From: Eubacteriaceae bacterium
GTDB taxonomy: Bacteria; Bacillota; Clostridia; Eubacteriales; Anaerofustaceae
DNA: 37,655 nt
Assembly (NCBI GenBank): GCA_012727485.1
Contig: JAAYHF010000123.1
Span: forward strand, 1 to 37,655
Direction of reading: 5' to 3'
Shown here piece after piece: positions 6,221 to 25,467 of the stretch. The stretch's first letter is position 1. Each line of letters opens with the position of its first letter. The notes beneath the pieces were generated by a model. That model was given only the letters and a program-made list of their open reading frames with translations, had not been told where the DNA came from and searched no databases. The translations under genes were made by a program, and so were the position numbers.

Positions 6221-6925
6221 ATGAATGCATTATTTAAAAGAGTATTATTGAAATTAAGCGGCGAAGCTTTAGGCAAGCAGGACGGCGGGGGCATGGACGA
6301 GCAGAAGGTTTATGCCGTGGCCGAACAGCTCAAAGCGGTGAAGGAACTTGGGGTTGAGGTGGCAGTGGTTATCGGAGGCGGCAACTTTTGGAGAGGCCGC
6401 ACCGGGGAAGGCATACAGCGCCCCACCGCAGACAGCATGGGAATGCTCGCCACCGTCATGAACGCCCTTGCTCTGGAGGATCTTTTCAACAAAGCTTCTC
6501 TCCCCGCAAAGGCGCTTTGCGCCCTGGAAATTCCCGGGGTCATGGAGGTATTCAACTATAAAAAGGCGATAGAATACCTCGAAGAAGGTTTTACCGTCAT
6601 CTTCGGAGGAGGAACGGGAAGACCCTTCTTTTCCACCGACACAGCCGCCGCCCTCAGGGCCGCCGAAATATCCGCAGATATAATTCTTTCCGCAAAAAAT
6701 GTGGATGGGGTATACGACAGCGACCCGAAAACAAATCCCGACGCGAAAAAATTCGAAGAATTGACCTATTCGAAGATCATCGAAATGGGATTAAAGGCGA
6801 TTGATACCGCCGCCGCCGCTTTCTGCATCGAAAGCGGTATTCCCCAGATGGTTTTTTCCCTCAATGAGGAAGGGAACATTATAAAAGCCGTTTGCGGAAT
6901 CAATACCGGAACATTTATAAAATAG
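6221..6925 (+). CDS. pyrH: UMP kinase
   Basis: FKRVLLKLSGEALGKQ, VIGGGNFWRGR, AKNVDGVYDSDPK. Confidence 0.98.
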   Translation: MNALFKRVLLKLSGEALGKQDGGGMDEQKVYAVAEQLKAVKELGVEVAVVIGGGNFWRGRTGEGIQRPTADSMGMLATVMNALALEDLFNKASLPAKALCALEIPGVMEVFNYKKAIEYLEEGFTVIFGGGTGRPFFSTDTAAALRAAEISADIILSAKNVDGVYDSDPKTNPDAKKFEELTYSKIIEMGLKAIDTAAAAFCIESGIPQMVFSLNEEGNIIKAVCGINTGTFIK

Positions 6926-6934
6926 GAGGCTAAT

Positions 6935-7492
6935 ATGATAAATGACATTAACACCAACGCCAAAGAGAAAATGCAGAAAACCATCGAAACCTTCAGCAGT
7001 GATCTCGAAACACTGAAGGCAGGCAGGGCAAATCCCCATATGCTGGACAAGATAACCGCCGAATATTACGGCGTTCAAACTCCCTTAAGCCAGCTCGCGG
7101 GAATCGCTTCCCCCGAACCGAGGATATTAACCATCACTCCCTGGGATCAAAAAGCCCTCAAGCCCATCGAAAAAGCCATTCAAGCATCGGATTTGGGGCT
7201 AAATCCCTCAAGTGACGGTAAAATGATACGCCTTATCATTCCCCAGCTGACCGAGGAGAGAAGAAAAGAACTCGTCAAGCACGTCGGAAAGGCGGGAGAA
7301 GAAGCGAAGGTGGCTCTACGCAATATTCGCCGCAATGCCATGGAGGAATTGAAAAAGAACGAAAAGGCCGGGGAGATAACCGAGGACGATGTGAAGGCGG
7401 GGGAAAAGGCCGTGCAGAAAACATTGGACGATTACATCAAGAAAGCGGACGAGATCATCAAAGCCAAGGAAACGGAGATAATGACCGTATAA
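6935..7492 (+). CDS. frr: Ribosome recycling factor
   Basis: LKAGRANPHMLDKITAEYYGVQTPLSQLA, ERRKELVKHVGKAGEEAKVALRNIRR; SD AGGAGG before ATG. Confidence 0.98.
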   Translation: MINDINTNAKEKMQKTIETFSSDLETLKAGRANPHMLDKITAEYYGVQTPLSQLAGIASPEPRILTITPWDQKALKPIEKAIQASDLGLNPSSDGKMIRLIIPQLTEERRKELVKHVGKAGEEAKVALRNIRRNAMEELKKNEKAGEITEDDVKAGEKAVQKTLDDYIKKADEIIKAKETEIMTV

Positions 7493-9280: not shown

Positions 9281-9725
9281 TTTTGGGCGTTCCTTTCCGC
9301 AGTTGTCAAATCGGCGCGGCGTTTACCCGCCGGGTTTGTGTTTCGGTTATTATAACATATTTCACCGCTTTAAGCACTGCTTCGGGTTGTATTGCCCGCA
9401 GGCGGCGTATAAACTCTTTTACACGGCGAATTATAAAACGGCGAACAGTATTTAAAACCCTTAATATCCAGACATAGATTTGACGAAGTAACCGAATCCT
9501 CAAAAGCAACTCCGTTATATAGAGTGATAAAATGTGAGCAAGAATTACGCTGATTACAGTTAAACCTTTATGTAAGCGACCGGATCACCTTAAGAAAAAC
9601 GATAGCATTTTTGTTTGTCTTTTGTGAGGTATTACCTTAATTCCTGCTTTAATATACCTTCTTATAAAGAAATGCGTTTTATTCGGAAAACAATCGGTCG
9701 TAAACGGCGGGTTTACGCCGAAATT

Positions 9726-9757
9726 AAAAAAGAAGGCGGGTTTGCGCCTTCTTTTTT
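9726..9757 (-). terminator. Terminator at the 3' end of the opp operon (potentially bidirectional)
   Basis: AAAAAAGAAGGCG-ggtttg-CGCCTTCTTTTTT, 13-bp stem with A/T tracts on both sides. Confidence 0.85.
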
Positions 9758-9761
9758 AATC

Positions 9762-24341: not shown

Positions 24342-25172
24342 ATGGATTACAGAATAGTGGCGGACAGTTCCTGTGACGCAATGGGGGAATTGAAGCAGCA
24401 GCTTCGAATAACCAAGGTTCCCCTTTCGATGAGCTTCGGAGATACGACTTATGTGGACAGCGACGATATGGATATTGACGCATATGTGCAGGCAATGATT
24501 CTCTACGAAGGCAAGACCACCACCGCCTGTCCTTCCCCCGGGGATTACAAAAATGCCTTTATGGGAGAAGGCACCGCCTTCGGAATAACCCTCTCGGGCA
24601 ACCTATCCGGCTCCTATGCCAGCGCAATGGAGGGAAAAGCCCTTGCCGAACAGGAGGGGGCCGATGTTCATGTTTTCGATTCCAAAAGCGCCTCTGCGGG
24701 GCAGACCTTAATCGCCATAAAGATAAAGGAGCTTGCCGAAGCGGGGCTCGATAAGTTGGGCATCATCGAGAAGATCAACCAATACATAAAGGAAATGAAA
24801 ACCTATTTCGTGCTGGACAGTTTGGAAAACTTTATCCGTAACGGCAGAGTTCCCCGGCTGAAGGGAAAGCTCGTCAGCGCCCTGAATATAAAGCAGATAC
24901 TCGGCAGTGACGGGGACGGAAACATCGTACTTTACCACAACTGCAGGGGAATAAACCAAATTGTGGAAAAAATGGCCTCTCTGGTCATCAAAAGCGGCAA
25001 AAACTTTGCCGAAAACAACCTCGTTATAACCCATTGCAGGAATTTGCCCTTGGCAAGCGCCATTAGGGACGCGATAGTTAAAAGTTGCCCCTTCAAACAG
25101 ATATATATGATGCAGACAAGGGGGCTTAGTTCTACTTATGCTTATGAAAAGGGCGTAATACTATCGTTCTGA
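24342..25172 (+). CDS. DegV family fatty-acid-binding protein
   Basis: YRIVADSSCD, TACPSPGDY, LSGNLSGSYASA, FVLDSLENFIRNGRVPRLKG. Confidence 0.95.
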   Translation: MDYRIVADSSCDAMGELKQQLRITKVPLSMSFGDTTYVDSDDMDIDAYVQAMILYEGKTTTACPSPGDYKNAFMGEGTAFGITLSGNLSGSYASAMEGKALAEQEGADVHVFDSKSASAGQTLIAIKIKELAEAGLDKLGIIEKINQYIKEMKTYFVLDSLENFIRNGRVPRLKGKLVSALNIKQILGSDGDGNIVLYHNCRGINQIVEKMASLVIKSGKNFAENNLVITHCRNLPLASAIRDAIVKSCPFKQIYMMQTRGLSSTYAYEKGVILSF

Positions 25173-25198
25173 AAGCTTTGCTTTCAGAACGATAGTAT
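25158..25198. repeat. Perfect 19-bp inverted repeat with TTT loop (hairpin 1), overlapping the degV 3' end
   Basis: ATACTATCGTTCTGAAAGC-TTT-GCTTTCAGAACGATAGTAT; degV stop TGA (25170-25172) is inside the left arm. Confidence 0.98.
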
Positions 25199-25200
25199 GG

Positions 25201-25241
25201 GCAATATGACTAAAAGTATTTTATACTTTTAGTCATATTGC
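25201..25241. repeat. Perfect 19-bp inverted repeat with TTT loop (hairpin 2), 2 nt after hairpin 1
   Basis: GCAATATGACTAAAAGTAT-TTT-ATACTTTTAGTCATATTGC. Confidence 0.98.
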
Positions 25242-25467
25242 TTTAAGGGTGGTGGAATTACCTCTTTTTATGGGTAATGGTTTTATAAATAATCAATACA
25301 TTAAGCTTTTATAATACAGCCAAACGACGGAATTGCATTGTTTCGGCTTGGTATATATACAGGGTTTTGAACTACTCGACGAAGGCGGGGGGAAGGTATG
25401 TGCTGTTGGGCTCGCCTTCTTACGGCTTATATATAGACATATCAAATCACGGCAAAGAGAGATTTTT

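Follow-up and report, generated by a model that had tools for sequence, protein, structure and literature searches.

How did two perfect hairpins come to stand side by side at the stop codon of a bacterial gene, and what, if anything, do they do there? The question is raised by the 3' end of degV in the 37,655 nucleotides of a Eubacteriaceae bacterium that were analysed here as a single stretch (hereafter the window). Each of the two hairpins (25158-25198 and 25201-25241) has a stem of 19/19 base pairs that is 100% complementary and closed by a TTT loop; on re-measurement, the coordinates, stem lengths, loops, GG spacer and stop codon position given in the initial annotation all proved exact. 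The left arm of hairpin 1 (25158-25176; like degV and the other parts of the pair, on the + strand) encodes I-L-S-F-stop followed by AAGC and contains the degV TGA (25170-25172). Beyond its loop (25177-25179) lies a right arm (25180-25198) that repeats the 3' end of degV in inverted form without a mismatch. The GG junction (25199-25200) leads to the left arm (25201-25219), loop (25220-25222) and right arm (25223-25241) of hairpin 2, behind which stands a TTTAAGGGTGGT tail (25242-25253). The window contains no other hairpin of more than 16 bp. A perfect 16-bp A-run/T-run hairpin that adjoins a gene 3' end at 9723-9760 is an ordinary bidirectional terminator.

The degV gene (24342-25172) encodes 276 amino acids with an intact C-terminus and matches Pfam PF02645 over its full length (E 5e-51); in itself DegV is an ordinary protein. 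Its orthologues within the order are full-length and 42-48% identical, and their C-terminus is conserved to the last residue (G-(I/V)-(I/V/L)-(I/L)-(A/S/C)-(F/Y)-stop). Given this common ending across the order, the stop and C-terminus have not been remodelled. A GTDB-wide search for orthologues returned only two distant loci (40-41% identity), and the single genome of the same genus has no degV orthologue (best match 31%). In the distant orthologue at L013, too, a perfect hairpin of 21 bp begins within the stop codon, and hairpins that overlap stops are found in the relative G009 as well, so the overlap does not set this gene apart. The next gene on the same strand starts ~230 bp downstream and, to judge by its translation, is probably an MFS-type transporter.

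No copy of the degV-pair stems was found elsewhere in the 2.11-Mb genome, where the only matches were weak and at chance level, and a plasmid search with the pair gave no match. Membership of a REP/BIME or MITE family, which calls for a conserved sequence in several copies, was rejected for the pair, whose only matches of note in the genome are to itself. The architecture of the pair is another matter. The host draft genome (2.11 Mb in 230 contigs, 92% complete, contamination 0.24%; the contigs were taken as one organism) was surveyed over 1,093,020 bp, or ~52% of its length, for hairpins with a matched-pair score of at least 11 and a loop of 3-10, genes in the sampled loci being simple ORF calls. 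The survey yielded 200 such hairpins, and Markov shuffles of part of the sample gave two in 397 kb and none scoring at least 15, so that chance is excluded. Among the 52 hairpins with a score of at least 15, the loop is 3-4 nt in 34. Ten pairs of neighbouring hairpins lie 0-2 nt apart in this 1.09 Mb and none lies 3-13 nt apart; random placement gave a mean of 0.17 pairs and a maximum of 2 in 500 trials. Seven of the ten, at the window, L051, L079, L124, L140, L145 and L188 (8159), each have a stem of at least 17 bp and unique stem sequences; the remaining three share a conserved-stem type and lie at L048 (two) and L188 (2322). A laxer rule (perfect stems of at least 8 bp, gap 0-3) brought the number of distinct pairs to 25, among them a weaker pair at L134 (13 + 10 bp); a 586-kb sample of relatives had just four pairs, all short-stemmed (8-12 bp). 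The dispersed palindrome family that had been proposed for these hairpins thus fails by sequence, the stems having no copies, and stands by architecture, with ten closely abutting pairs in half of the genome. The TTT loop was discarded as a family mark: the other pairs have different loops, and in the conserved-stem family the loop varies without restriction.

Of the seven unique-stem pairs, three overlap a stop codon; the others lie in ORFs or between genes. Besides degV, the stop-overlapping pairs are those of an ACT-domain gene (L124), where KL-stop lies in the arm and the proteins of relatives align to the last residue, and of an SbcC/YhaN-like AAA gene (L188), where the arm starts in the TAA stop. 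Two further pairs lie in frame inside ORFs. The first of these ORFs (L051, 270-851) is small and, from a reading of its sequence, seems to be pyrophosphatase (PPase)-like, with no match in Pfam. Its double hairpin is carried by an in-frame insertion of ~47 amino acids absent in G001 and G005, where WVGSGEKTV or WKGTDGEVV stands, and the conserved portion of the arm is confined to the first codons (KG). The second (L145, 1777-3318), which a motif and a Pfam PALP match suggest to be diaminopropionate ammonia-lyase-like (DpaL-like), has ~134 extra amino acids, lacking in relatives and composed partly of 72-bp repeats, directly before the conserved FVTATDGNHG. The pairs at L079 and L140 are intergenic. 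The weaker pair at L134 lies within an EAL-domain gene (6712-7230), on the opposite strand, adjoining a conserved LPVSVN that is preceded by repeats of ~10 residues (EGKDPTGSLP and the like); a second EAL protein, encoded in the window, has no such repeat stretch at the LPVSVN position. Tandem repeats are found near two of the pairs, with 3 copies of 72 bp at L145 and 4.9 copies of 43 bp at L188, and in both cases a perfect copy adjoins unique sequence and decayed copies lie farther out.

The conserved-stem double hairpins have the form AAAATTCGSC-N3-GSCGAATTTT, one base (S), AAAGTTCMCGCC-N3-GGCGKGAACTTT. With up to three mismatches allowed, they occupy 36 sites genome-wide (e.g., C3:4457, C121:1 and C200:446); no copy was found in 40 relatives, all of them distant, or, with the exact pattern, in viral contigs. 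The degV pair does not belong to this family, as 0 of the 36 sites falls there at the same tolerance. Palindromes of other kinds are also present in the genome. TGACC(C/G)GGTCA occurs 653 times genome-wide versus 0-7 times in 40 relatives and is absent from the window; it lies mostly in irregular clusters, spaced 35-250 bp apart, within long spacers (e.g., L042, 1742-11688; L074, 397-10170). The locus L006 (1-702, in G000:C133, and 871-1128) has an ORF of 234 amino acids of a diverged Y1 (IS200-like) transposase type, which recalls the transposases associated with REPs; four TGACCNGGTCA palindromes stand next to it.

For the degV pair itself, we put at about even the chances that it is a double hairpin of DNA origin, made from local sequence by fold-back or template-switch synthesis. 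Template-switch palindromes were among four options offered in the initial annotation, and they are now the best supported of these. At three loci one outer arm is made up of conserved codons of the host gene: degV (VILSF-stop), the ACT-domain gene (KL-stop) and the DpaL-like gene (FVTATDG). Since the other arm is its inverted copy, these stems look locally templated, and because the outer arm encodes conserved protein it must be the older of the two. Hairpin 1 thereby combines the perfect arms, the short loop and the single older arm that characterize a template switch. If each stem was copied from local host sequence, the absence of recurring stem sequences would follow. The accompanying tandem repeats with their decayed copies would also speak for a replication-type process. 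Template-switch mutations both generate hairpins and make existing ones perfect (PMC8794818), and template switching acts on quasipalindromes in E. coli (PMC7202029).

The course of events that we infer, comprising the fold-back step, its order and any effect on the mRNA, would be as follows. The 3' end of a stalled or broken nascent strand would fold back over 3-4 nt, copy itself for ~19 nt and then resume normal synthesis, and the second hairpin would arise likewise beside the first. Palindromes of this sort would survive in places that can bear them, namely right at stop codons, within spacers and, in frame, in the surface loops of proteins; at degV the outcome would be a short, strongly folded 3' UTR. 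Several points count against this origin. In rRNA data, template switching prefers loops of 4 nt, not 3 nt (PMC8794818), two independent fold-backs alone do not predict abutting hairpins, and the likeness of the tails behind four second hairpins, described below, hints at a shared sequence element. The abutment could be pictured, on geometrical grounds alone, as two broken ends that each fold back, fill in and then join. Loss of the nucleases that suppress template switching was considered as a cause and rejected, as both xseA and recJ are present. SbcD gives only a weak match (27.7 bits) and none of full length in this 92%-complete genome, and the same-genus genome has a full match; we do not use this as a cause because several relatives also lack a full match. 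It is a more doubtful proposition, which we advance tentatively, that a bacterial lineage carries double-hairpin elements in which the architecture recurs and not the sequence. Each would be built in place out of the host's own sequence and settle at a stop codon or in frame within a protein, so that an active palindrome-making process would reshape the ends of genes and the loops of proteins.

A different history, in which a mobile double-hairpin element, comparable to those of fungal mitochondria or to the in-frame palindromic elements of Rickettsia, inserts whole at gene ends, in spacers and in protein loops and its stems later diverge while keeping their pairing, seems to us rather unlikely. 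It would account for the abutment and for the in-frame insertions at L051 and L145, and the pairs share a common architecture with a junction of 0-2 nt. Moreover, double-hairpin units do spread in the host genome, to go by the conserved-stem family, which is built alike and numbers 36 copies in it against none in the 40 relatives. The tails behind four second hairpins are also alike (TTTAAGGGTGGT in the window, TTCGGGGTGGCT at L188, TCGGGTGTGGCA at L124 and TTTGGGGTAGAG at L134), which hints at a shared sequence element, although the resemblance was noticed post hoc and a fuzzy form of the pattern matches 0.6% of positions. The motif TTYGGGGTRG was rejected as a common mark, being post hoc, and is not built on here because at L134 it overlaps codons of the repeat. 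Against insertion of a preformed unit stands the host coding sequence in the outer arms of three genes, which such a unit leaves unexplained. No two unique-stem pairs have a stem sequence in common (by genome search for two of them and from the listed stems for the others), no target duplication was seen by eye, and the host genome contains just two Y1-transposase fragments.

Selection on a functional RNA 3' end, whose tandem hairpins would terminate transcription or block 3' exonucleases and thereby stabilize degV mRNA, we regard as no more probable than the mobile element. The pair sits right at the stop codon, and a distant degV orthologue also has a perfect hairpin (the 21-bp one at L013) from its stop. 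The predicted RNA fold of 25140-25290 is very stable (-69.7 kcal/mol versus a shuffled mean of -27.5, z = -11.7), and in it the two stems touch without a spacer because the GG junction pairs with U25242-U25243. The same two hairpins are formed by single-stranded DNA of both strands (about -37 kcal/mol, z = -17). The pair is nevertheless unlike the ordinary 3'-end hairpins of the host genome, which have A-run/T-run stems or U tracts (e.g., 9723-9760): its stems are low in GC (7/19 G-C pairs in hairpin 1, 5/19 in hairpin 2), and hairpins 1 and 2 are followed by GGGC and TTTAAGGG, with no U run. A terminator consensus scan reported no terminator at the pair. The earlier view that these hairpins lack a proper U tract and are not textbook terminators is accordingly upheld, and a canonical intrinsic terminator, with a G+C-rich stem and a U tract, was dismissed as a candidate. 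So too was a conserved Rfam element, the best score in Rfam 15 (24.4 versus 208 bits) lying far under the curated cut-off. Hairpins clustered <15 nt apart and no more than 80 nt from a stop have been proposed to end transcription, in many cases with no U tract (PMC8355165), and the degV pair, with a gap of 2 nt and a start inside the last codons, is placed in just this manner, so that an RNA role is conceivable. Selection for such a role fits the place of the pair at degV but not the like pairs that lie in frame inside ORFs, where termination would harm.

An assembly or amplification artefact is very improbable: the 230-contig, 92% complete draft is consistent with a metagenome-assembled genome, but the sequence is colinear on both sides of the pair with degV intact, stops and reading frames are preserved at several double-hairpin loci, and relatives with no gaps, or almost none, likewise have perfect hairpins at 3' ends.

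If palindromes arise from the sequence at hand with appreciable frequency and are retained in frame or at stops, this genome would offer a natural laboratory in which to study how 3' UTR hairpins and new protein loops originate; until now, this question has been approached chiefly by reconstructing the history of rRNA and of yeast. It would also caution annotators against taking every long hairpin 3' of a gene for a terminator. This significance rests on the recurring architecture; the degV pair alone deserves less.

Double-hairpin elements were reportedly described from Allomyces mitochondria by Paquin in 2000. As portrayed in later accounts (PMC2800124, PMC7218506, PMC5910586), these elements resemble the present pairs in being tandem hairpins, dispersed in the genome and with no flanking duplication noted; here, too, tandem hairpins are dispersed, with ten pairs of gap 0-2 in 1.09 Mb. 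They differ in being organellar, with a mobility inferred from related species, whereas the degV pair is bacterial and without copies. The Rickettsia palindromic elements are, like the pairs at other loci here, in-frame palindromic insertions in unrelated genes, but they form families of ~150 bp with a conserved peptide, whereas the degV pair stands at the end of a gene and belongs to no sequence family (PMC10969869). The clustered-hairpin terminators share with degV two adjacent hairpins near a stop and the absence of a U tract; the set described here, in contrast, also has members internal to ORFs (PMC8355165). REP/BIME palindromes (PMC2817692, PMC8266576) are similarly intergenic and often clustered, but are defined by a conserved high-copy sequence that the degV pair lacks. 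Template-switch (quasipalindrome) hairpins differ in that most documented events make one hairpin perfect or lengthen it (PMC8794818, PMC7202029), and the works consulted do not describe abutting pairs that recur in one genome. Their likeness to the degV pair lies in the perfect arms, the short loop, the copying of one arm from the other and the fact that no sequence family is needed to account for them (PMC8794818, PMC7202029).
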